A DNA stretch of 64,000 bases, taken from NCBI RefSeq assembly GCF_900169565.1, contig NZ_LT828648.1, forward strand, positions 1,118,876 through 1,182,875. Direction: 5' to 3'. Below, piece by piece: positions 43,303 through 64,000 of the stretch; within the stretch, counting starts at the first letter, position 1, and the number at the start of each line of letters is the position of its first letter. The position numbers were made by a program, and so were the translations under genes. The notes under the pieces are model-generated. The model made no database searches, was not told the DNA's origin, and was given only the letters and a program-made list of their open reading frames with translations. This DNA comes from Nitrospira japonica. GTDB lineage: Bacteria; Nitrospirota; Nitrospiria; Nitrospirales; Nitrospiraceae.

Positions 43303-44571
43303 TCAGTAGGCGTGAAAGATCGGAAAGCGGCTGCAGAGTTCCTTGGCCTTGGCGCGGACGGTCTCGAGCGCCGCCGGATCCTCCCGGTGTTGAAGCACGG
43401 TGTCGATCAGTTCGACGATCGACTTCATCTCCGCTTCCTTCATCCCGCGGGTGGCGACGATCGGGGTTCCCAGCCGGATCCCGCTGGCGATGGCCGGCGG
43501 CTTTTCATCGTACGGTACCGCATTCTTGTTGACGATGATTCCCGCCGCATCCAGGGCCGCGTCGGCTTCCTTGCCGGTGATGTTCTTGTTGGTGAGATTG
43601 ACGAGCATGAGGTGCGTGTCGGTTCCGCCGGACACGATCCTGTATCCCCGGTCGAGAAGGCCCTGAGCCATAACCTTGGCGTTCGTGACGACCTGTTGCT
43701 GGTACCGCTTGAAGGCCGGCGACAACGCTTCCTTGAACGCGACGGCTTTCGCCGCGATGACGTGCATGAGGGGGCCGCCCTGCATGCCGGGGAAGACGAA
43801 CTTGTCGACGGCTTTGGCATGCTCGGCCTTGCACATGACGACACCGCCGCGCGGCCCGCGCAGGGTTTTATGGGTGGTCGTGGTCACAAAGTCGGCGTGG
43901 GGAACCGGACTTGGATGGAGCCCCGCCGCAATCAGCCCGGCGATGTGGGCGATGTCGACCATCAAATATGCGCCGACCGACTTGGCGATCTGGGCGAATC
44001 GGGGGAAATCGATCGTGCGGGCATAGGCGCTGGCCCCGACCACGAGCATCCGCGGCCGGCATTCCTCGGCCAGTTTCTGGACCGCCTCGTAATCGATGGT
44101 CTCGGTCCGGCGGTCTACGCCGTAGGAAAATGCGCGGAAGATCGAGCCCGAAAAATTGACTTTGCTGCCATGCGTCAGGTGTCCGCCCTGGGCCAGATCC
44201 ATGCCGAGGATCGTGTCGCCAGGCTTCAGCACGGAGAGATAGGCCGCCATGTTCGCCTGTGAGCCGGAATGGGGCTGGACGTTGACGTGCTCCGCTCCGA
44301 AGATCTGCTTGCACCGTTGGATGGCCAGGTCTTCCACGGTGTCGACGTGCTGGCATCCGCCGTAATAGCGCTTGCCCGGGTAGCCCTCCGCATACTTATT
44401 GGTCATGAGGGAGCCCTGGGCAGCCAAGACCGCGGGGCTGGCGAAGTTTTCCGACGCGATCAGCAGGAGCTTATGGCGCTGGCGTTCCTCCTCGGCGTCG
44501 ATGGCGGCATAAACTTCCGGATCGGCGGCGTGCAAGGCGTCCAGCGAACCGACGGCATCCTTCATTGACAT
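43303..44571 (-). CDS. glyA: Serine hydroxymethyltransferase
   Basis: This 422-residue PLP enzyme converts serine and tetrahydrofolate to glycine and methylene-tetrahydrofolate. Markers: [15 protein letters not shown] near 36, [16 protein letters not shown] near 58, [15 protein letters not shown], and the PLP lysine in [14 protein letters not shown]. Length is typical. It starts 17 bp after rplI. Confidence 0.98.
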
Positions 44572-46808: not shown

Positions 46809-46895
46809 GCCGAAGTGGCGGAACTGGCAGACGCACTAGATTCAGGGTCTAGCGCCCGCAAGGGTGTCCGGGTTCAAATCCCGGCTTCGGCACCA
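46809..46895 (+). tRNA. tRNA-Leu (anticodon CAG)
   Basis: The acceptor stem GCCGAAG pairs perfectly with CTTCGGC, followed by discriminator A and an encoded CCA. The anticodon stem CTAGA/TCTAG encloses loop TTCAGGG, so the anticodon is CAG. The long variable arm is typical of leucine tRNA. T-arm: CCGGG-TTCAAAT-CCCGG. It marks the left border of the mobile island; tRNA-Leu genes are frequent integration targets. Confidence 0.97.
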
Positions 46896-47528: not shown

Positions 47529-47741
47529 ATGGAAACAGTCACTAATAACAAGAAGCCTTCATTTGAGGAACTTGGCGACTGGTTAAGCCCCGAAGAGGTC
47601 CGTGTCTTTCTCGGCCTCGGACGAGCAACCGTCTACGAGTTGATTCGCTCGCGCCAATTGCCCAGTCGTCGCTTCGGTAGACGTATCCGAGTACCGAAGG
47701 CTGCACTGTCTCCTCGCATCGAGTCGATGGTGAACGCATGA
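47529..47741 (+). CDS. Excisionase-family (AlpA/MerR-like) DNA-binding protein
   Basis: This 70-residue protein has a winged helix-turn-helix of the excisionase type: LSPEEVRVFLGLGRATVYELIRS then LPSRRFGRRIRVPKAAL. Such proteins direct excision or regulate the integrase of mobile elements. GAGG stands nine bases before the ATG. The stop overlaps the primase-helicase start as ATGA, so the two are coupled, as in phage satellites and plasmids. Confidence 0.88.
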   Translation: METVTNNKKPSFEELGDWLSPEEVRVFLGLGRATVYELIRSRQLPSRRFGRRIRVPKAALSPRIESMVNA

Positions 47742-49672
47742 AGCCTTGCTCAACCTCCCCAACTGATTGCTCGAATTTGATGACGTCGGCTGAAGTAAAG
47801 ACTGCTGTAGCGGTGCAAATGATCTTGAGGGCTTACGGGAGCGCTCCCGATGAAAAAGGAAAGTGGAATTGCCTGTTTCCCGAACGACATAAGAACGGAG
47901 ATCTACATCATAGCGTTACGGTGAAGGGCGATATCGCGACGTGTTGGAGCCAGAAGTGTTTTGAACAAGCTGACATCTTTCGTCTCGTCGCGCTGAAGGA
48001 AGGCATCCAGACATTTGCCGATCAAAAGAAGCGCGTCATTGAACTCGCAGGACTGAGTAAGAGAAATGGCACCAGGCTTGGGAAAATCGTGGCGACATAT
48101 GACTATACAGACGAGAGAGGAACTCTCCTCTTCCAAGTTCTTCGGTATCATCCCAAAACCTTCCGGCAGCGGCGGCCGGTCGGTCAAAGCGACTGGTTAT
48201 GGAATGTGAATGATACTCGGCTCGTGCTCTACCGTCTGCCGCTAGTGTTGAAGGCCGATTATGTATTAATCGTTGAGGGCGAAAAAGATGTAGAGAGAGC
48301 CTATGAGCTAGGTCTTCCTGCGGGCTGGGCTGCTACGTGTAACCCAATGGGAGCGGAGAAATGGAACGACGGTTACTCCGAGGCTCTAAGCGGCAAACGG
48401 GTGGTCATTCTGCCCGATGCTGATGAACCAGGGCGAAAGCATGGAGCAAAAATCGCGCATTCCCTCACAGGAATAGCCACGAGCGTTGAATGGATAAGTT
48501 TGCCCACAAACGCCAAAGACTTTTCTGAATGGGCGGTAGAGAAAACTGAAAGAGATGTTGCTGGTTTACTCTCAAAGATAGTTCCACAGCCACAAACATT
48601 TGGGCTTCAGTTTACATCGTTGGCTGAACTGCTCACTGAACCCGATGAGCTGACAACATGGCTCGTCGAGCAACGCTTGGTGGTCGGCGGACTGTCGCTG
48701 CTTTGCGGAAAACCAAAAGCCGGGAAAAGCACGTTGGCTCGGAATCTCGCGCTGAGCGTCTCTCGCGGTACTCCCTGGCTTGGCATGGAAACCGTTCAGG
48801 GATTGGTCTTCTATCTTGCCCTTGAAGAGAAACGATCGCAGATACGTAAGCACTTTCAACTGATGGGAGCGACGGGAGCCGAGGCAGTCCATATTTTTTG
48901 CGCCCCCTCGCCTGCAAATGGGCTAACACAACTTAGAGCCGCTACGGAACGCGACAAACCTGTATTGATCATTGTGGATCCTCTATTCCGATTCACGAGA
49001 GTGCGAGACTGCAATGATTACGCGTCGGTTACTTCAGCTCTGGAGCCATTACTTGTTCTGGCACGTGAATCAAATGCACATGTTCTCGCGGTTCATCACT
49101 TGGGAAAGGGAAATCGAGACGGCGGTGATGCCATTCTCGGCTCAACCGCAATTTTTGCCGCAGTTGACGCTGCGCTCATCCTCAAACGTACAGAAAAATA
49201 TCGAACGCTGAGTTCCATTCAGCGCTATGGAGAAGATCTCGAAGAAGTCACTCTCAGCATGGAGGGCGAAAACGGGCTGATTTCCATTGGCCCATTGCGA
49301 AAGGATGCAGAAGAGGTTGCGATAGCTACGCTCATTCTCGACTTTCTAGCAACGCAGGGGAAGCCCGTCGAGGAATCAGTGATTCATGACAACATTTGGA
49401 GTCGTAAGGCAATCAAAGTAAAGGCACTCCGGCGCTTGGTTGAGGATAGGAAGGTTTTACGTCAGGGGGCCGGTAAGAAAGGGAACCCATTTATTTATTC
49501 AAATGCTGGTTTCCTAGTTCCCTCTATATATAGGGAACCAGAAACATGGAAAGGGGAATTGATCGAAAGTCTAAGCAACTCTAAAGGAAATGCTAGTTCC
49601 CATCTGCTTGCGGGTTCCGGGACAGCTTCGAAGTATTCAGAGTCAGAGGCGGAAGTGATCGACCTATGCTGA
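47738..49672 (+). CDS. Primase-helicase: zinc-finger/TOPRIM and RepA-like ATPase
   Basis: This protein has 644 residues. The N-terminus has a CHC2-like zinc site (WNCLFPERH and CWSQKCFEQADIF). A TOPRIM domain follows at about 165-260 (LIVEGEKDVERA; LPDADEPGRKH). The C-terminal half is a RecA-fold helicase of the RepA/AAA_25 type with Walker A GKPKAGKST near 332 and Walker B LIIVDPLFR. It should support replication of the element after excision. It is intact, unlike the mobilization genes downstream. Confidence 0.9.
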   Translation: MKPCSTSPTDCSNLMTSAEVKTAVAVQMILRAYGSAPDEKGKWNCLFPERHKNGDLHHSVTVKGDIATCWSQKCFEQADIFRLVALKEGIQTFADQKKRVIELAGLSKRNGTRLGKIVATYDYTDERGTLLFQVLRYHPKTFRQRRPVGQSDWLWNVNDTRLVLYRLPLVLKADYVLIVEGEKDVERAYELGLPAGWAATCNPMGAEKWNDGYSEALSGKRVVILPDADEPGRKHGAKIAHSLTGIATSVEWISLPTNAKDFSEWAVEKTERDVAGLLSKIVPQPQTFGLQFTSLAELLTEPDELTTWLVEQRLVVGGLSLLCGKPKAGKSTLARNLALSVSRGTPWLGMETVQGLVFYLALEEKRSQIRKHFQLMGATGAEAVHIFCAPSPANGLTQLRAATERDKPVLIIVDPLFRFTRVRDCNDYASVTSALEPLLVLARESNAHVLAVHHLGKGNRDGGDAILGSTAIFAAVDAALILKRTEKYRTLSSIQRYGEDLEEVTLSMEGENGLISIGPLRKDAEEVAIATLILDFLATQGKPVEESVIHDNIWSRKAIKVKALRRLVEDRKVLRQGAGKKGNPFIYSNAGFLVPSIYREPETWKGELIESLSNSKGNASSHLLAGSGTASKYSESEAEVIDLC

Positions 49673-50103: not shown

Positions 50104-50652
50104 GTGAACAATCTTCGATTGAAGCATCGCCGATTTGTTGAAGAATACGTGATCGATTTCAATGGTGCACAGGCCGCAATTCGCGCGGGCTACTCCAAAA
50201 AGACAGCTCGACAGATCGGTCAGAGATTGTTGACAAATGTTGACATTACGAAGGCGATCGAGCAGCGAATGAGGCATTTCACTATGCAATGCGAACTCAA
50301 GACCGAAGCTATACTTAGGCAGCTCACGCGGATCTGCTTTTCAGATATACGAAAGATTTTCGATTCCGATGGCAAACCTCTGAAGTTGCATCAACTCGAC
50401 GACGACACAGCCGCCGCAGTCTCAAGTATGGAAGTAGCCGGCAGCAGCATTAAGATTCGATTCTGGAATAAAATTGACGCGTTGAGTCTCGCCGTCCGGA
50501 TCCTGAACTTGTTCAAAGAGGATACGCTTGCTCAGACCCAAGAGGATAAATACGTGATGATTGTGCCGGCGACCGCTACACACGAAGAATGGTCAAAATG
50601 TGTGGAACAACAAACCAAGCAGAAGCCAAATGGTCCGTTTGGCCCCAAGTAA
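50104..50652 (+). CDS. Phage terminase small subunit (orphan)
   Basis: This 182-residue protein starts at GTG, with AAGGA nine bases upstream. The N-terminal helix-turn-helix LKHRRFVEEYVIDFNGAQAAIRAGYS and the following KKTARQIGQRLLTN are classic for the Terminase_2 family, which recognises packaging sites on phage DNA. No large subunit, portal or capsid gene is near. In satellites such orphan subunits can redirect helper-phage packaging; here it might equally be a phage remnant. The 264 bp after it (50653-50916) hold nothing I can support. Confidence 0.88.
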   Translation: MNNLRLKHRRFVEEYVIDFNGAQAAIRAGYSKKTARQIGQRLLTNVDITKAIEQRMRHFTMQCELKTEAILRQLTRICFSDIRKIFDSDGKPLKLHQLDDDTAAAVSSMEVAGSSIKIRFWNKIDALSLAVRILNLFKEDTLAQTQEDKYVMIVPATATHEEWSKCVEQQTKQKPNGPFGPK

Positions 50653-51530: not shown

Positions 51531-51884
51531 GGAGTCCAAGCACCGTGAGCGAGCAGACCCACCCAACTCGAAGCGGCAAATCTTAGAGAATCGTCAGTCC
51601 AACGGCCAGACATTCCAGACCATGGCGAAGCCCTTAAAGTCTTCGACTTGATAGTCCACGGGGAACAGAGCGGCATGCGAAGGAAGGGATGAACGGTGAA
51701 GGGCATGGTGACCTTATAGCGAGATCGATTGTAGGTTAGCTGGAAAGGTGACTCGAGAACCACATGCAACAAATACGTGCATAATCCATCCTAACGGAGA
51801 TTCCGCGTGAAAATCGTTCTCTGAATTGACCTCTTTCATAGGGACGGCATACACTCCTGCTCTATTTCCTTGAGGCGATGAGAG
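51531..51884. other. Intergenic region with a possible gene remnant
   Basis: On the minus strand, 51772 down to about 51578 encodes two protein-like pieces in different frames: LESPFQLTYNRSRYKVTMPF and then LFPVDYQVEDFKGFAMVWNV before a stop. They may be the tail of a frameshifted gene. No start, ribosome-binding site or family could be assigned. The rest appears to be the leader of the helicase-nuclease gene. Confidence 0.3.
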
Positions 51885-54800
51885 ATGAGCCCAGCGGCAA
51901 CGCTACTTCACAAGTTGCTTGAGTATATTCATGAGCAAGCGAAAGAGATTGATCCTCGTGGCTTTCGCCTATCCGCATCAAAAGGTTTGGTCTGGCGTCG
52001 AGAGGACCTTAGTGGCCTCCCAGGTATAGACTTTGATGTAAAAATCGACGGCGATCATATCTGGCTTAGGCTCCGCCGCCTCGAAGCTACTTCACCCCCA
52101 GCCACTCCGACCACCCACAAGGACATTATCCGTGTAAGCGTCGACCCGCACGGACCGAAGCCATTGGTCGACGAAGCAGCATTCCTTCATCGCATGACTC
52201 AGCTGCTCGCTGACAAGATACCGGAAGATCAAGCCACCATTGAGGCACGCGAGCGAGCTGCACTAGAGAACGTGTTGAAGGAGTATTCCACGCTATGGGA
52301 GTCCTGGGCGGAAGGCGAATGCCCCCGACGCAAGACCATCGAATTATATGGTGACCTATTTGCCATCAAACACCAATTGGAAGCTGAGGAAACAGCAAAA
52401 CCGCAGGAGTTGGTGTGGGGTATTGGCGCTTCATTGTGGAACCTACCATGGGAAGAGGGGATTGTTAACTTCGAATATCCACTGATCACCCAGGCCGTTG
52501 AAATATTCATGGACGAGGCGACTCTGGCGTTAGACATCCGGCCTCGTGCCACTCCATCACGCGTGGAGATGGATGCCTTCATTGCCTGCGGTGTCGCCGG
52601 GGCGGCCGAGGTCGAACGTGCCATGCGCGCGCACCTTGACGCTCACAGGGACCAGCCTGTCACGCCCTTTGACAGTTCCAGCTACAGCGACATATTGAAA
52701 CTCGCGGCAGGTGGATTAGATAGCCAAGGCTCCTATCAGGAATGTCTTGCTCCTGAGTCTGTGTTTCCGAGCCCGGGAGACCATCTGATCGTGACAAATA
52801 CCTGGGCAGTGTTGGCCAGACCCCGTTCCAACAATTACCTGCTCGAGGATCTTCGGCATCTGCAGGAGAGTTTGGACGCAGGTTGCCCTATTCCCATGGG
52901 TCCACAGGCCTTAGTCACGCGACCTACAGACCTTCAGATCGAGCCTGATTCAATCAGATTCCGAGGATTGTCGAGCCGAGGCGATGTGGGCAACGGTCCG
53001 GTGAGGGAACTCTACTTTCCACTTCCTTATAACGATGAGCAAGTCACAATCATCAAATGCCTCGAACGAGCCGCCGGTGTGACCGTTCAAGGCCCGCCGG
53101 GAACAGGGAAAACCCATACAATAGCCAACATCATCTGTCACTACTTGGCGACGGGACGCCGCGTCCTTGTGACCTCGAGAGGAGAACCTGCACTCGAGGT
53201 CCTCCAGAAGAATATTCCGGAGGAAGTTCGACCACTCACAGTCGCCTTGCTCGCAAGTGACCGGGAGGGAGTCCGGCAATTTCAAGCCTCTGTCGAAAGT
53301 ATTCAGCATCAGGTTTCGCAGCTCAATCTGGAGCAGGCTCGACAGGACATTGTATTGCTGCAGAATGCGATCGGAAGGGCTCATGTGGATGTCATGGGAA
53401 TTGACAAACGAGTAGATGAAATTGCCCTCTCGCAACTCTCTCACGTCATCGTCGACACGGTCGAACGACGCCCCCAGGAATTGGCGGAGCTTGTAGTATC
53501 TGGTGAAGACCGTTTTGGGTGGTTCGATGACTCGGTTACGCTTACCCCTGACCAAGCACCTCCTCTATCACAGGAAGAAGCCGGAGAGCTACGAGCCGCA
53601 AGGCGCCGTCTTGCGGCGGATCTTGTGTATGTTCAGACCGTGATCCCCTCTGCGGACGACTTGCTTCCGACTGCGCGGATAGCCTCTCTCCATGAGGTGC
53701 TATCGCAGATGAAAGTTATCGAAACAGAGATCTTTGAGGGGACACTTCCTTCCTTGAAAGCGATAACCCCTGATGTGCTCCAATCTGCTCGTGATTTGAC
53801 GGCCTGTCTTGTTGAGGCAATAGAATTGACGGAGACACTAGAGCGCATTGCCGACACCTGGCCTATGACGCTTCGCACTAAGTGCAAATTGAGTTCGTTC
53901 GCGGCCGAACGTCAAGCGCTTGAATCGCTTTTCGCCGACGTGACGAGCCTGACGAGGGCAAGGGCGCAGTTTCTCCATCGTCCGGTCAAATTCCCCGAAG
54001 CAGGACTCATGTCGCCCAAGACTCGTGAGGCAGTCATGCGCGCGGTTTCCGATGGTAAACCATTTGGGATGCTGTCATTTGGCCAAACCGAGGCCAAGAC
54101 CCACCTTGCGAACGTGCGTATTGGCGGGCTGCCGCCTCAGACAGCTGCGGATTGGATGCACCTACTTCGCTTTCTCAACCTCCATGAGGAAATGTTGTCT
54201 TTTACGGTACGTTGGAACCATCTGGCATCCGATCTCTCGCTTCCTAGCTTCACTCACCACGGCAATCTCCTACGCGAGATTGAAGTCGTCGTGACAACTG
54301 CACAGAACGCCCATCGGCTGGCAACCCATTACGATGTGGTACTGCCCAAGCAAGCTGAGGCCGTATTTCTGCAAGCACCACATGAAGCCCTTTCAGGTTC
54401 GTCATCGGAATTAAAGATCATTCGGGATCATCTCCTAAGACATCTTCACAGAGTGAACCTGGCACAAGCAGCCACGGAACTCGCGATGCTCCGAGAAAAG
54501 TTGGCGGGAAAGACTGGGCCGATCGTTGAACAATTCCATATATTCCTCCAAGGCACACTTGGCAATCCGCAGATCACGACCGAAAGCGTTGTAGCTCGAT
54601 ATGCCGACTTACTCGCGGAACTGGCACGCCTTGCTAGTCTGTCCCGTCAACTCGCTCTCGTTTGCGATCTTGGGACACGGCTTCAAAAGGCAGGGGCTCC
54701 GAAATTAGCGGAACGCGTCCGCACTCACCCTCTGACCACTTCGGGAGATGATACAGTCTTTCCCGTATCCTGGCGTGAGGCCTGGAATTGGGCTCGCATG

Positions 54801-56480
54801 CGAACACATCTGGAGGCTATCGAGTCACGTCAGGAACTACATGCACTGGCAGCACGGCGACAGGAACTTGAAGCTGGGTTAGCGCGGCTCTATAGGGAAC
54901 TCGTCGCAAAGGCTGCATGGATCTCGACAAAGCAGAATGCAACACATCTAGTGCTCCAGGCCTTGGCTGGATACGCGACGGCCATCCGACGTATAGGGCA
55001 AGGGACTGGCCCTAATGCGACTCGATATCGCCGTGATGCTCGCGATGCGATGACGGATGCGGCTGGAGCGGTGCCTTGTTGGATTATGAGTCATGCGCGG
55101 ATTTCCGAGGCAATGCCAGCGGACATTGGTGCATTTGATCTAGTTATTGTGGATGAAGCCAGTCAATCGGATCTCTGGGCATTGCCTGCAATCTTGCGGG
55201 GGAAAAAGGTTCTCATTGTTGGAGATGATAAGCAGGTTTCACCAGATGCGGGTTTTATTGCAGGAGAGAGAATTCGAGAACTGAAAGCTCGGTTCCTGAC
55301 TGAGCAGCCATACGGTGTCGAGATGACACCCGAGAAGTCGCTCTACGACCTCGCCGCCCGTGTATTTGCGTCTGACCAAGTCATGCTTCGGGAGCACTTT
55401 CGATGTGTCCCTTCGATCATCGCATACTCTAATCGCATGTTCTACGGAGGCAAAATTTGGCCATTGCGCATTCCCCGACCGAGCGAACGGATCGATCCAC
55501 CGTTGATAGATCTCTATGTTGAAGGAGGGATTCGAGATTCGCGCGATCGCAACACATCTGAGGCACAGGCCATTGCTGAAGAGATTGAGAGCATTCTTCG
55601 AGACAAACGGTTTGCGAATCGGACCATCGGCGTGGTGTCTCTACTCGGGATTGAACAGGCCAAATACATTGACATGGTAGTACGAAAGCGATGCGATGGG
55701 CCAGAGCTCATTCGACGGCGATTTGAGTGCGGCGATGCTCGTACATTTCAAGGAAGCGAGCGCCATATCATGTTTCTCAGCATGGTCGTCGATACGGCGA
55801 ACTGCAAAGCGTTGTCAGGGACCATGTTCGAACAGCGTTTCAATGTTGCGGCATCTCGAGCTAGAGACCGTATGTATTTGGTTCGATCGGTAAACATTGC
55901 CTCACTTTCCGATAGAGATATTCGCAAGACCTTACTTGTGCATTTTGACAAACCAATGGTAACCGATGAAGCCGAAGCAGATCGCTTAATCGAGCGTTGT
56001 GAGTCTGAATTCGAGAAACAGATGTTCAATGCCCTCGTGGACAAAGGGTATCGCGTTATTCCCCAAGTAAAGACCGGGGCCTATCGGATTGATATGGTGG
56101 TAGAAGGAGCCGGGGATGCCAGGCTCGCGATCGAGTGTGATGGCGATCAATTTCATGGACCTGATCGATGGCCACATGACATGAGCCGCCAGCGTATTCT
56201 TGAGCGGGCGGGATGGCGCCTCTGGCGGTGCTTTGCTTCGACGTGGATCTTACATCGTAAGACCGTCTTCAACGAGCTAATAGGTGTCCTTGATTCTATG
56301 GGTATCGCTCCCATCGGGGCACTGACCCAGGCACCAACCTTGGTAGAAAAGCGCCAGTGGGTAAGTCCTGCATTGAGTTCGGAACCACTTCCCGTTCCTA
56401 CTGACGGACCTTCAATAAAGCCCTCCTTGATACCGCCAAACCTGCGTGCCGCTAAATCTCCACCTTTTGCTTATGATTGA
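51885..56480 (+). CDS. SF1 helicase fused to Vsr/MTES_1575-like nuclease (probable defence protein)
   Basis: This protein has 1531 residues. Residues 1-370 are unassigned. The helicase has Walker A GPPGTGKT at 403-410, a long helical insertion (about 480-1040), Walker B VIVDEASQ around 1090, motif III VGDDKQVSP, HFRC near 1168 and a motif VI-like FNVAASRARDRMYLV near 1320. The C-terminal domain (about 1370-1485) has ESEFEKQMFNAL, RIDMVVEG and IECDGDQFHG, the very-short-patch/MTES_1575 nuclease fold. Single-gene helicase-nuclease fusions of this general plan (for example DUF4011-helicase-Vsr, Hhe) are known anti-phage proteins. The N-terminus here does not look like DUF4011. It is intact. Confidence 0.85.
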   Translation: MSPAATLLHKLLEYIHEQAKEIDPRGFRLSASKGLVWRREDLSGLPGIDFDVKIDGDHIWLRLRRLEATSPPATPTTHKDIIRVSVDPHGPKPLVDEAAFLHRMTQLLADKIPEDQATIEARERAALENVLKEYSTLWESWAEGECPRRKTIELYGDLFAIKHQLEAEETAKPQELVWGIGASLWNLPWEEGIVNFEYPLITQAVEIFMDEATLALDIRPRATPSRVEMDAFIACGVAGAAEVERAMRAHLDAHRDQPVTPFDSSSYSDILKLAAGGLDSQGSYQECLAPESVFPSPGDHLIVTNTWAVLARPRSNNYLLEDLRHLQESLDAGCPIPMGPQALVTRPTDLQIEPDSIRFRGLSSRGDVGNGPVRELYFPLPYNDEQVTIIKCLERAAGVTVQGPPGTGKTHTIANIICHYLATGRRVLVTSRGEPALEVLQKNIPEEVRPLTVALLASDREGVRQFQASVESIQHQVSQLNLEQARQDIVLLQNAIGRAHVDVMGIDKRVDEIALSQLSHVIVDTVERRPQELAELVVSGEDRFGWFDDSVTLTPDQAPPLSQEEAGELRAARRRLAADLVYVQTVIPSADDLLPTARIASLHEVLSQMKVIETEIFEGTLPSLKAITPDVLQSARDLTACLVEAIELTETLERIADTWPMTLRTKCKLSSFAAERQALESLFADVTSLTRARAQFLHRPVKFPEAGLMSPKTREAVMRAVSDGKPFGMLSFGQTEAKTHLANVRIGGLPPQTAADWMHLLRFLNLHEEMLSFTVRWNHLASDLSLPSFTHHGNLLREIEVVVTTAQNAHRLATHYDVVLPKQAEAVFLQAPHEALSGSSSELKIIRDHLLRHLHRVNLAQAATELAMLREKLAGKTGPIVEQFHIFLQGTLGNPQITTESVVARYADLLAELARLASLSRQLALVCDLGTRLQKAGAPKLAERVRTHPLTTSGDDTVFPVSWREAWNWARMRTHLEAIESRQELHALAARRQELEAGLARLYRELVAKAAWISTKQNATHLVLQALAGYATAIRRIGQGTGPNATRYRRDARDAMTDAAGAVPCWIMSHARISEAMPADIGAFDLVIVDEASQSDLWALPAILRGKKVLIVGDDKQVSPDAGFIAGERIRELKARFLTEQPYGVEMTPEKSLYDLAARVFASDQVMLREHFRCVPSIIAYSNRMFYGGKIWPLRIPRPSERIDPPLIDLYVEGGIRDSRDRNTSEAQAIAEEIESILRDKRFANRTIGVVSLLGIEQAKYIDMVVRKRCDGPELIRRRFECGDARTFQGSERHIMFLSMVVDTANCKALSGTMFEQRFNVAASRARDRMYLVRSVNIASLSDRDIRKTLLVHFDKPMVTDEAEADRLIERCESEFEKQMFNALVDKGYRVIPQVKTGAYRIDMVVEGAGDARLAIECDGDQFHGPDRWPHDMSRQRILERAGWRLWRCFASTWILHRKTVFNELIGVLDSMGIAPIGALTQAPTLVEKRQWVSPALSSEPLPVPTDGPSIKPSLIPPNLRAAKSPPFAYD

Positions 56481-57195: not shown

Positions 57196-57363
57196 ATGAG
57201 AATGGCGCGACTCAACATTCAGTTGCCGAAGCCCCTAAAAACTAAGCTCGACGCTCAGCGTCAGCGCGGGACCACGGCTTCCGGTCTGATCCGTCACTTG
57301 CTGGAAGAGCATTTCAATACTGACCGGCGAAGAACAGGCCGGAACGCTCCACGTGGATTCTGA
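57196..57363 (+). CDS. Short ribbon-helix-helix regulator upstream of integrase
   Basis: This 55-residue protein begins MRMARLNIQLPKPLKTKLDA and continues with TTASGLIRHLLEEHF, a clear ribbon-helix-helix (CopG/Arc-like) pattern with a basic tail. GGAGGG stands five bases before the ATG. It ends 49 bp before the integrase gene on the same strand, so it probably controls the integrase or excision. Confidence 0.8.
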   Translation: MRMARLNIQLPKPLKTKLDAQRQRGTTASGLIRHLLEEHFNTDRRRTGRNAPRGF

Positions 57364-57412
57364 CAGGTGCCGTCGAGGACCTACGCGATCCCGAAACCAA
57401 TAGGAGGCCTTC

Positions 57413-58579
57413 ATGCGCGGCCATCTCTTCCAACGCAATCCTGAGAAGAATCCTCGAAGCTGGACCATCGTGCTCGACGTTGGCCGGAAGGTGGATCCGC
57501 TCACAGGGCGTACGAAGCGTGTCCAGATGTGGAAGACGGTTCAAGGGACCAAGAAAGAGGCGCAGGCCGAACTTGCCTCGATGCTTCACAATCTGCATCG
57601 TGGCCAAGTCGTTAGTCCGTCAAAAATGACCTTGTCGGAATGGTTCGATGAATGGATGAAATCAGCCATCAAGCCAAATAAGCGACTGCGCACGTGCGAG
57701 ACCTACCAAAATGTCATCGAGCGGCATCTCAAACTCGCCTTAGGCCAGTATCGGCTTGGCGATCTTCGTGCGAGCCACATTCAGCACTACTATCAATCGT
57801 GCAAACTGGCCCCGGCGACTGTCTCGCAACATCACACCATTCTGCATAGTGCCCTGAAAGCGGCTGTCATGCAGGACCTCATCCCTCGGAACGCAGCTTC
57901 CCTCGTGATTGGCAAGCCGAAGCGTCAAACCGATCATGAGGACCTTACCGCGAACTGCTGGGATGGACCGGAGGCGAAGGCCTTCCTCATGGCCGCTAAG
58001 GCCGGTAGCGCACAAGATGCAGCCTTCTATGCAACGGCACTGGACGGTGGCGCTCGCAAAGCGGAGCTCTGCGGGCTGAGGTGGTCAGATCTGGACCTTG
58101 AGAAGAAGACCCTGTCAATCGCCAGACAGTTGGTGAAGATCGGCAAGAAAGACGCCCTGCCCCTCTTTGGGCCGACGAAAAACGGAAAGGCTCGCACCGT
58201 CGATCTGGACGAGCGAACCATTGAGCTGTTGCGCCGACACAAGGCGCAGCAGGCCGAACGGCGGCTTCTACTAGGAACTTCCTATCAGGACCATGGGCTC
58301 ATCTTCGCTCGTGACTTTGGCCGGCCCTTGCCCATGAATAATCTCGGCGAGCGGGGATTCGCCAGGCTGATCAAGGCAGCTGCAATCAAACGGATTACCT
58401 TCCACGGGCTTCGTCATACGTGTGCGACGCTCTTGCTTCAGGCTGGGGTCCCGGTCAAAGTGGTAAGCGAGCGACTCGGTCATAAGCGCATTGAGATCAC
58501 CCTAAACGTCTATGCACATGCATTGCCATCTATGCAGCAAGATGCGGCAGTGAAACTTGGGCGCCTATTACATGGGTAA
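57413..58579 (+). CDS. int: Tyrosine recombinase (integrase)
   Basis: This 388-residue integrase has an N-terminal arm-binding region, a core-binding domain (about 70-160, TLSEWFDEWM) and a catalytic domain with all expected residues: Arg in GARKAELCGLRW, Lys in PTKNGKARTV, HxxR in HGLRHTCATLL, His in SERLGHKRIEI and Tyr in TLNVYAHALP. AGGAGG stands five bases before the ATG. It should integrate and excise the element. It is intact. Confidence 0.95.
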   Translation: MRGHLFQRNPEKNPRSWTIVLDVGRKVDPLTGRTKRVQMWKTVQGTKKEAQAELASMLHNLHRGQVVSPSKMTLSEWFDEWMKSAIKPNKRLRTCETYQNVIERHLKLALGQYRLGDLRASHIQHYYQSCKLAPATVSQHHTILHSALKAAVMQDLIPRNAASLVIGKPKRQTDHEDLTANCWDGPEAKAFLMAAKAGSAQDAAFYATALDGGARKAELCGLRWSDLDLEKKTLSIARQLVKIGKKDALPLFGPTKNGKARTVDLDERTIELLRRHKAQQAERRLLLGTSYQDHGLIFARDFGRPLPMNNLGERGFARLIKAAAIKRITFHGLRHTCATLLLQAGVPVKVVSERLGHKRIEITLNVYAHALPSMQQDAAVKLGRLLHG

Positions 58580-60851: not shown

Positions 60852-62036
60852 TTACAGTAAAAGATTTTTAGCAAGCGTTGGCTTTCCAAGAATTGTTAAT
60901 CCCTTCGCGATTTCTTCCAGAAAATTTACTTTTTCTATGAGATGTCTAACTTCCTGAGCTGGGTTTGTATTTAGTTTGTGCTTGTTTCTGACAAGGGTCA
61001 GTTGTCTCTCATAAAATTCGCAAAAGCCCGCTTCCCGACCGATATAAAAAACAGTCTCCAAATCAGCAATTTCATCTCCTGAAAGAAACCTCAATATGTT
61101 CTTTTGGACTTCCTCAACCTTCTTTGCATGTCCTATCATCGCCTCAAAATCAGCGTTCGTGAAATCTGTTCCAAGGTCGTTCAAGTCTGGCGGCGGATGT
61201 AACCCTTTCCATTCTTGAACAACCAATTTTAATTTATGGTCCGTTAGATACAAAAGATCAAATTCTTTGCCAAGGCGAGCTGCCATAGTCCTATGATTCT
61301 TTATCAGGTTTATAGCATCAGAAAACTTGTTCGAACCTATACCATACGCCTCTTTAATTTCCTCTTTTGTCTTAACAAAAGCATCATCTGTCCATCTATC
61401 AATAGGAGGAAGCATTTTTGAGATTGTTCCTAAATCATTACGAGATAAGTCCTTCGTATAAGTCTTGGTTTGTCGTTCATCAACGAACCCCTCCAAACGA
61501 TATTTGGAGTCATATATAATTTTCTGCAATTCAAGCAGGCTCTTTCTTATAACCACCAAATTACAGAGCGCCTTATCCTTTAAGCTTTTCTGGCCATCTC
61601 GAGTCGTGGCGTATCTGAGTTCTTGCCCATCATCATCGATATTGCCCAAGCTAACCACGAATCGCTCCAGACTCTTGATATGTTGGGTAAGTTCTAAATC
61701 TCCCACTTTTGTAGATAACAGCAGCGCCCAATAGGAGCGAATGTCGTGATTCTTATTGAGAGTGGTTTTGATTAGTTTCTCCTTTAAAAAAGCGTCGTAA
61801 ATGTACTTTAATGATAACTCAAGGGCGTGACGTGCATTATAAAGAATTGGCATAGCGAGCGTATCTCGCTTGATGTACTGCTTCTGTTCAATAACAGCAT
61901 TCACTAGTTCTAGCGCTGCCTCCATGTATCCATCCATGTAGCTTTCAGGGTGAGCTTGTTTGCCTATGCAAGCATTCCACTTGGTACCTTCTTCTGTAAG
62001 CGCAAAAAACGGGTCGTTGCTATTTTCCAAAGACAT
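60852..62036 (-). CDS. HEPN-like protein of unknown function
   Basis: This 394-residue, helical protein has near residue 60-80 the motif MPILYNARHALELSLKYI and, after a short insert, NKNHDIRSYWALL. The R-H-x-L-E-L-x-L-K plus later N-H pattern recurs in the next gene and resembles HEPN-type helical bundles, in which an R-x4-6-H motif forms an RNase site; here the spacing is RH, so RNase activity is not assured. AT-rich compared with the chromosome, consistent with transfer. No strong ribosome-binding site. Confidence 0.6.
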   Translation of the reverse strand: MSLENSNDPFFALTEEGTKWNACIGKQAHPESYMDGYMEAALELVNAVIEQKQYIKRDTLAMPILYNARHALELSLKYIYDAFLKEKLIKTTLNKNHDIRSYWALLLSTKVGDLELTQHIKSLERFVVSLGNIDDDGQELRYATTRDGQKSLKDKALCNLVVIRKSLLELQKIIYDSKYRLEGFVDERQTKTYTKDLSRNDLGTISKMLPPIDRWTDDAFVKTKEEIKEAYGIGSNKFSDAINLIKNHRTMAARLGKEFDLLYLTDHKLKLVVQEWKGLHPPPDLNDLGTDFTNADFEAMIGHAKKVEEVQKNILRFLSGDEIADLETVFYIGREAGFCEFYERQLTLVRNKHKLNTNPAQEVRHLIEKVNFLEEIAKGLTILGKPTLAKNLLL

Positions 62037-62117: not shown

Positions 62118-62717
62118 CTAATAGCGGCCGGAGGCGCTACTGTTATTGTCGAGTAGGCCATCCGCTCCCGAAAAGAAATTGTTCACGGCTTCCATTACGT
62201 CCTTAATATTCGGTACATCGAAAGGTACATCGGGCAAACAAACCAATGCCCCTTTTTTATCCGTCGAGTAACGAAAAGAAAAGGAGCTTTTATCAAGTTC
62301 GTGGAAGTCCTTAACGACATGCTCCACGGCCACTAAGCACTCAGTATCTCCATCTGCTTCAAGGGCAATCATTATCTTCTTACAGACTTTCCAAAGCTGC
62401 CAAAGGTTATGGTTCGCGTAATCCTCCGCAGGGATGTCGGTGTATCCTCTGTACCGGTCGATAATCCATTTGAGCGCCAACTCTAACCCGTGCCGGTAGC
62501 AGAAAAGGATTGGATAGACGAGTTCATGTCGAAGCGCCCGCTCATTGGGATGACACGCCTCGACCAACATCCTGCCAGCTTGCATATACCCATTCCAAAT
62601 GTGCGCGTGCCGCGCGATTTCATGTTCAGCGAATGAGACAGATCGATGCCAGTCATTCTCAGCGCGGAGTAAGCGGTCTCCCTTCTTGGGCCACTTGTAC
62701 TCGTTCTCGGATTCCAT
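62118..62717 (-). CDS. HEPN-like protein, relative of the following gene
   Basis: This 199-residue protein has YPILFCYRHGLELALKWI and NHNLWQLWKVCKKI, matching the two motifs of the 394-residue protein downstream; the two are related over this core only. GGAAGGAG stands seven bases before the ATG. Pair of such genes in tandem on a mobile island suggests a defence or toxin role; this is inference. The 81-bp gap between them has no terminator I can see. Confidence 0.62.
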   Translation of the reverse strand: MESENEYKWPKKGDRLLRAENDWHRSVSFAEHEIARHAHIWNGYMQAGRMLVEACHPNERALRHELVYPILFCYRHGLELALKWIIDRYRGYTDIPAEDYANHNLWQLWKVCKKIMIALEADGDTECLVAVEHVVKDFHELDKSSFSFRYSTDKKGALVCLPDVPFDVPNIKDVMEAVNNFFSGADGLLDNNSSASGRY

Positions 62718-63158: not shown

Positions 63159-64000
63159 ATGATCATGACCAACCTGGTATCAGAGCAATTAGCTGCGCTA
63201 TCGCATCTCTTCTCCTCAGGTGTGGTCCGAGAAATGGCGAGAAAAGGCAGGTCGTCTATCTTCGCGAGATTGGCGAATGAATCTGGCCTTCAACAGTCAT
63301 TGCCTTCATCTCACCTTGTAAGGGACTTGTTCGATATAGCATTCTCACTGCTAAAACGCGAAGGTTACCGGCACGAGTATATCTATAAAGCCGCGCTGAC
63401 CCACAATATATTACTCGGCACACACCGACTGAGAACGGCGTCAATGCTAACTGAATTTCGCATAGGTGAATGTAAGGCGGATGTGGCAATTCTTAACGGC
63501 ACGTCGACTGTTTATGAGATTAAATCCGAACGCGATTCTCTGAGCAGACTAGAGCGACAAGTCGCGGCGTACTCGAAGGTTTTCGCTACAGTATATGTCA
63601 TAGCTGCTGAGGGACACGTTCCTTCAATTCTAAAATCAGTACCACCATATGTTGGCGTAATGCGTCTCAACAACCGCTACCAGATTCAAAAAGTAAGGGA
63701 GGCATTAGATCAGCCAGAGCGTACTAACCCGGATGCAATATTTGATTCGATACGAACACAAGAAGCACGCGCGATCCTTCTTGCCCAGGGAGCGAAGCTT
63801 CCGGTGGTGCCCAATACTGAACTGAATGGAGCACTTCGGGAATTGTTCGTTAAGCTGAAGCCACACGAGGCGCACGACGGCATGGTGCGTGTCCTTAAGA
63901 AGACGCGTACACTCCTAAGACTCTCTGACTTGGTCGCTCAGCTTCCGTATTCACTTCAGACCGCTGCCCTTTCCGTACCCCTTCGAAAACTAGATCATGT
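63159..64000 (+). CDS. sce7726-family protein (partial, runs off right edge)
   Basis: The frame is open from ATG 63159 to the end. Family signatures: LTEFRIGECKADVAILNG, YEIKSERDSLSRLERQVAAY and VYVIAAEGHV. The D-x(n)-E-x-K arrangement (ADVAIL then YEIKSE) is that of PD-(D/E)XK nucleases; sce7726 proteins have no proven function and often pair with sce7725. The frame extends upstream to 63078, and TTG 63102 (LEYIALEFIRRHP) is an alternative start with protein-like sequence. Residues after about 210 are unassigned. Confidence 0.82.
   Translation, partial: MIMTNLVSEQLAALSHLFSSGVVREMARKGRSSIFARLANESGLQQSLPSSHLVRDLFDIAFSLLKREGYRHEYIYKAALTHNILLGTHRLRTASMLTEFRIGECKADVAILNGTSTVYEIKSERDSLSRLERQVAAYSKVFATVYVIAAEGHVPSILKSVPPYVGVMRLNNRYQIQKVREALDQPERTNPDAIFDSIRTQEARAILLAQGAKLPVVPNTELNGALRELFVKLKPHEAHDGMVRVLKKTRTLLRLSDLVAQLPYSLQTAALSVPLRKLDH

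Follow-up and report, generated by a model that had tools for sequence, protein, structure and literature searches.

A single gene in a variable region of the Nitrospira japonica genome fuses a helicase motor to a nuclease, and the question raised by this locus is whether such a protein could act against phage on its own and, if so, whether it belongs to a defence family that is already known. The gene lies on the plus strand at positions 51885–56480 of the 64,000-nucleotide stretch of DNA analysed here (the window). We put at roughly 0.6 the probability that it encodes a stand-alone anti-phage helicase–nuclease, that travels as cargo on an island resembling a phage satellite and works as proposed below, a reading drawn from sequence comparisons and structure models.

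Domain layout of the helicase–nuclease

The open reading frame begins with ATG and contains no internal stop, and its identification rests on its translation, its homologues and its pattern of selection. Within the 1531-residue protein, Pfam places AAA_11 at residues 382–459 (E = 2.5e-16), AAA_12 at residues 1152–1333 (1.2e-12) and PF18741, the MTES_1575 REase, at residues 1376–1466 (3.8e-30; 104 bits against a gathering cut-off of 38). All of the segments lie on the plus strand. An N-terminal region (residues 1–372; 51885–53000), known from an AlphaFold2 model and from its conservation within the clade of homologues, precedes the first part of RecA-like domain 1A (53004–53324), which is recognised by AAA_11, by profile matches to UPF1, SEN1 and IGHMBP2 in the PDB, and by the Q motif, Walker A (residues 399–416) and motif Ia. 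Between motif Ia and Walker B there is an insertion of ~530–550 residues (residues ~480–1010; 53322–54914), delineated by the AlphaFold2 model, our own HMM and hhalign. The second helicase part (residues ~1020–1350; 54942–55934) carries Walker B and motifs III–VI, with support from AAA_12, Foldseek and VIA, and is followed by the MTES_1575/Vsr-like PD-(D/E)XK nuclease domain (56010–56282), defined by PF18741 and its conserved residues. Among 25 homologues the helicase motifs GPPGTGKT, VDEASQSD, GDDKQVSP, HFRC, FQG and QRFNVAASRARDR are invariant or nearly so, as is the nuclease core FE1377, D1403, E1417-C-D-G-D (D1419) and H1424. The original prediction of an intact fusion, with a large insertion in an SF1 helicase and a C-terminal Vsr-like nuclease, is thus borne out by the reading frame, the Pfam domains and the conserved motifs, the catalytic residues being kept.

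The Walker A lysine K409 and the Walker B aspartate D1090 are 681 residues apart, and residues ~480–1010 are all-helical in the AlphaFold model. The insertion HMM matches members of the clade and, by hhalign, the sister groups; influenza haemagglutinin HA2 entries in the PDB profile search were discarded as chance coiled-coil matches to these helices. A profile of the 25 homologues matched UPF1 (5.7e-16), SEN1, NAM7 and IGHMBP2 in the PDB, over the helicase motifs only. With the model of residues 372–1496 (mean pLDDT 79), Foldseek retrieved Setx, Ighmbp2, Sen1, Dna2 and Upf1 (E from 3e-8, for Setx, to 1e-4), and VIA aligned 389 residues with Ighmbp2 (Z 17.5, rmsd 7.0). By its SF1 motifs and the fold predicted for its core, the motor is a UPF1-like SF1B helicase. 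UPF1-like enzymes are 5′–3′ movers.

Directly upstream of the gene there is a promoter-like site, TTGACC-18-TACACT (51826–51855, plus strand), which is only a weak match to the consensus, and promoter-like sites in the region are no more numerous than in shuffled sequences.

The N-terminal region and the named families

The first 370 residues had been described as matching no recognised domain and as unlike the DUF4011 of Hhe. No Pfam family matches them above its cut-off, and Foldseek and VIA searches with the N-terminus gave no convincing fold match, a result that does not show a new fold. The AlphaFold2 model, with pLDDT mostly 79–96 across residues 40–310, comprises a helix at residues 3–19, a short strand and helix, a hairpin at 48–63, a 54-residue helix at 113–166 and beta-hairpins at 174–220. 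The 54-residue helix and the beta-hairpins sit where a UPF1-like stalk and OB-like 1B domain would precede domain 1A, with weak fold matches, and from the model the region is possibly a winged helix plus an OB/stalk. Members of the clade conserve it, and sister groups do so weakly. Because its profile matches, by hhalign, the similarly built sister groups (98.9%, 98.2% and 91% probability) and not the N-termini of ProA (0.2%) or of Hhe (0.3%, the Hhe side being three Hhe-like sequences that score 1358–1394 bits against the Hhe model and are themselves under its cut-off), the N-terminus is distinct from that of DUF4011 proteins, as had been proposed.

Near-full-length homologues of 50–63% identity occur in Acidobacteria, Betaproteobacteria, Gammaproteobacteria and Pseudomonas, copies on Variovorax plasmids being 57% identical, and homologues of ~40% identity are found in other genomes of the class and phylum to which N. 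japonica belongs. A tree of 68 sequences, built by a quick method on the second helicase part and the nuclease, groups the window protein with its homologues in a single clade (SH-aLRT 96, and 100 for a core of 27 rows) that stands clearly apart from ProA and the Hhe-like proteins; some branches in other parts of the tree are long.

The best curated match is ProA (NF058533, ‘anti-phage protein ProA’), which covers the helicase, the insertion region and the nuclease end (residues 375–1468; 215 bits, 1.1e-63). Membership of this family was rejected, since the cut-off is 1500 bits, the first 642 model positions are unmatched, and the N-terminus and the clade are separate. Hhe (NF042953; 150 bits, 4.7e-44) has an SF1 helicase part and an MTES_1575-type nuclease in common with the window protein and was rejected on similar grounds: a cut-off of 2000 bits, no DUF4011 in the window protein, dissimilar N-termini and a separate clade. 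Kinship to these two anti-phage families was nonetheless counted in favour of an anti-phage role. The best PADLOC match is the candidate PDC-S37 (PDLC05009; 210 bits), which aligns with the helicase–nuclease part at residues 386–1469. This match extends over model positions 298–1338 of 1550 only, leaving the first 297 unmatched, and ProA members score 1230–1266 bits against the same model, so that membership was again rejected. Our literature search found nothing usable on PDC-S37 or for the ProA paper. For Mokosh (MkoA/MkoC), which has the SF1 helicase motifs in common, the match is limited to the helicase at 70–110 bits; Mokosh type II was excluded because Pfam finds no PLD nuclease, the C-terminal nuclease of the window protein being MTES_1575.

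Two published descriptions anticipate the architecture itself. The CnuH protein of CoCoNuT systems is a UPF1-like SF1 helicase with a large helical insertion after Walker A, and in Type III-B a Vsr nuclease is fused directly to this helicase, with a wHTH at the N-terminus (PMC11090510). All three elements, helicase, helical insertion and directly fused C-terminal Vsr nuclease, recur in the window protein, a likeness drawn from the published description, and the order of elements in its N-terminal model is compatible with the wHTH of CnuH; by analogy, it probably works like Type III-B CnuH. Unlike CoCoNuT Type III-B, however, it lacks an McrC/DUF2357 partner both in N. japonica and in nearly all genomes with homologues. 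In a search that covered PF10117 and PF09823, and which a divergent CnuC could escape, McrC was missing in all but one of 40 genomes that carry such homologues, and DUF2357 in all but one of 39, this genome being without either; both exceptions lie on other contigs. On this account membership of the CoCoNuTs is not supported. The fusion of an SF-I helicase with an MTES_1575 nuclease was noted as early as 2013 (PMC3710099); the giant helicases described there share this pairing, but carry HEPN, transglutaminase-like and DUF3320 wHTH domains, none of which was found by Pfam in the window protein. The suggestion that the gene may represent a new subtype therefore stands in part. The clade is distinct and well supported, falls below every curated cut-off and has its own N-terminus, whereas the architecture is already known and PDC-S37 is related; what sets the clade apart from CnuH is that it lacks McrBC partners.

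A foreign gene and its carrying island

Sequence comparison marks the gene as foreign to its host and horizontally transferred. At third codon positions its GC is 0.53, compared with 0.82 for a serine hydroxymethyltransferase-like host ORF at 43303–44571, and it is missing from six other genomes of the genus (present in one of seven), where the sole weak match, in G071, is an Hhe-like protein. Identity to three homologues at codon positions 1, 2 and 3 is 0.68–0.70, 0.77–0.80 and 0.32–0.34, respectively (0.70, 0.80 and 0.34 for the closest), a pattern that argues for strong purifying selection and against a chance open reading frame. A viral origin was considered and rejected, as the only viral matches were distant ones, in one phage record and 15 viral contigs.

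The left edge of the variable region is a tRNA-Leu(CAG) gene (46809–46895, ARAGORN), directly past which GC falls from ~61% to 50–55%. There follow, with the tRNA all on the plus strand, a primase/helicase of the carrying element (47738–49672; Pfam AAA_25, phrog_239), a terminase small subunit, TerS (50104–50652; Pfam Terminase_2, 3.6e-33, with matches to phage TerS), and, beyond the helicase–nuclease gene, a tyrosine integrase (57413–58579; Pfam Phage_integrase, 4.7e-30, phrog_1). The placement on a mobile island, as first predicted, agrees with these genes, with the low GC and with the absence from the other genomes of the genus; a search for att repeats and for the ends of the element found neither, the tRNA-Leu end having no further copy close to the island in this genome. 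A relative of the primase, 50–51% identical, lies beside capsid, TerS and integrase genes in G155, a genome of the same family. Because primase, TerS and integrase, with the capsid in the element of this relative, make up the gene set of phage satellites, the island probably resembles a phage satellite.

A gene placed between the primase/TerS pair and the integrase of such an island might serve the element itself, by interfering with a helper or competing phage or by aiding replication or packaging of the element, and the capsid-bearing element around the G155 primase would fit this. In G155 and G030, however, no helicase–nuclease gene accompanies the primase relative, and homologues of the helicase–nuclease turn up in a wide range of unrelated settings with neither primase nor TerS, so that we regard service to the element as very unlikely.

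Several other features of the region may be recorded. The tRNA-Leu gene is an integration hotspot in the genus: other genomes carry different genes there, and in G071 (L139, L140) the end of the tRNA is repeated, as a 55-bp copy, ~20 kb further downstream. The G155 element (L188, 7120–15068) is satellite-like, adjoins tRNA-Gly and encodes an integrase, an HK97-type capsid, TerS and the primase, ~50% identical to that of the window; it is possible that it and the window island represent a satellite family within this bacterial family. A short open reading frame before the integrase (57197–57364) looks by eye like a ribbon-helix-helix protein and is a possible integrase regulator. Further along the same variable region, genes of the sce7726 and sce7725 families and then a RES-domain gene run from 63102 to the window end at 64000 and on to 66048 (L132, 6978–9921), and are probably another conflict or defence cassette. 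Between this cassette and the integrase lie two adjoining low-GC genes, 60852–62036 and 62118–62717 (−), with no family match.

Defence neighbourhoods and proposed mode of action

The neighbours of the homologues are rich in defence genes. At a threshold of E ≤ 1e-15, 99 PADLOC models were matched within 4.5 kb of homologues in one set of 73 proteins and 109 in another of 77, against two for 75 control proteins from random regions of nine of the same genomes; these counts serve as a contrast and overstate the number of genes, as several models match one gene. The neighbours include Septu PtuA/PtuB, Gabija- or OLD-type genes, AIPR, GmrSD, Eco47II, C5 methylases, MmeI and ArdC, and AbiE and GIY-YIG genes lie close to the 57% identical Variovorax copy. 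In the immediate window no other known defence system was found.

UPF1-like helicases also act in repair and RNA turnover. The motor closely resembles Dna2, Sen1 and Ighmbp2, and an AddAB-like helicase–nuclease pair lies in one neighbourhood (L041), so a DNA repair or RNA-turnover enzyme with no immune role has to be considered. Such an enzyme fits poorly with the patchy, accessory distribution in the genus, the mobile context, and neighbours that are rich in defence genes where the control is near zero; we consider it the least probable of the alternatives. Kinship alone is no proof of defence, both because of these roles and because one of the core flanking genes in P. aeruginosa is a DUF4011 relative (PMC10250203).

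More distant plasmid relatives, of 35–39% identity to the window protein, show the same kind of surroundings. In Acinetobacter baumannii p3ABAYE (L164, 4262–24494; also L147) a 35% identical relative ends a complete type I BREX operon, 63 nt past brxL, and tblastn found matches in 38 Acinetobacter plasmid records, some not full-length. Relatives on Sphingobium and Rhizorhabdus plasmids come directly after methyltransferase and restriction genes (mod/res), and a Variovorax paradoxus relative lies a few kilobases from a Wadjet-like cluster (DUF4194, large ATPase). Taken with an architecture that equals Type III-B CnuH, and with a small overlapping gene upstream of Variovorax copies and a similar one by a Burkholderiaceae copy, the BREX and mod/res arrangements could mean that the protein works as a subunit in some larger defence machinery, like CnuH in CoCoNuTs or the last BREX gene, with partners encoded elsewhere in the genome. 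We think this unlikely: no partner is constant, the neighbours vary by locus, the window gene is alone, McrC and DUF2357 are nearly always absent, and the BREX-linked copies are just 35% identical. The prediction of a single-gene system draws support from the defence context of the homologues and the solitary gene in the window, and is qualified by some distant relatives, which either close a BREX operon or come after a small gene that overlaps them.

A stand-alone anti-phage protein is, on the sequence evidence, somewhat better than an even proposition. A defence role is favoured because an intact motor and nuclease are combined with defence-rich neighbours, patchy spread across phyla, occurrence on plasmids, an island with an integrase, and foreign codons under purifying selection. 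We infer phage restriction, the order of the steps and the substrate as follows. The UPF1-like SF1B motor would load onto aberrant or invading nucleic acid, and the N-terminal module and the long helical insertion may be recognition or regulatory arms that sense the target or restrain the nuclease. ATP hydrolysis, with translocation or remodelling on the target, would then release or position the C-terminal Vsr-type PD-(D/E)XK nuclease to nick or cut a substrate that could be ssDNA, dsDNA or RNA. The phage might be stopped directly, or by self-destruction as in Hachiman, where a helicase–nuclease pair senses damaged DNA and destroys all cellular DNA (PMC12278908), a parallel drawn in terms of function. 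A further, tentative proposal is that the clade constitutes a separate, unnamed one-protein immune family with its own sensor module, made up of the N-terminal 370 residues and the insertion, and is the source from which CoCoNuT Type III-B or the BREX-linked copies derived or recruited their helicase–nuclease.

Should the protein protect alone, the helicase-plus-Vsr logic of multi-gene systems would have a compact, one-protein form, in which the signals sensed by the N-terminal module and the helical insertion could be tested directly. Tools for annotating defence genes would also gain a clade that they do not yet model, one that reaches across several phyla and onto plasmids, and the extra gene that ends Acinetobacter BREX operons would be explained.

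A conserved upstream partner gene was considered and rejected, as the small overlapping gene, found with two Variovorax copies and one Burkholderiaceae copy, is absent in the window and not general. It overlaps or abuts the helicase–nuclease start (L145, 11801–11998; L160, 11747–12004; L041, 9756–9992) and is ribbon-helix-helix-like by eye, in two cases without a Pfam hit, and is perhaps a regulator. Several homologues (L049, L050, L059, L065 and L163) are broken, through decay or assembly errors: in four the reading frame is split, and in the Rhizorhabdus plasmid copy a transposase lies between the two parts of the gene.
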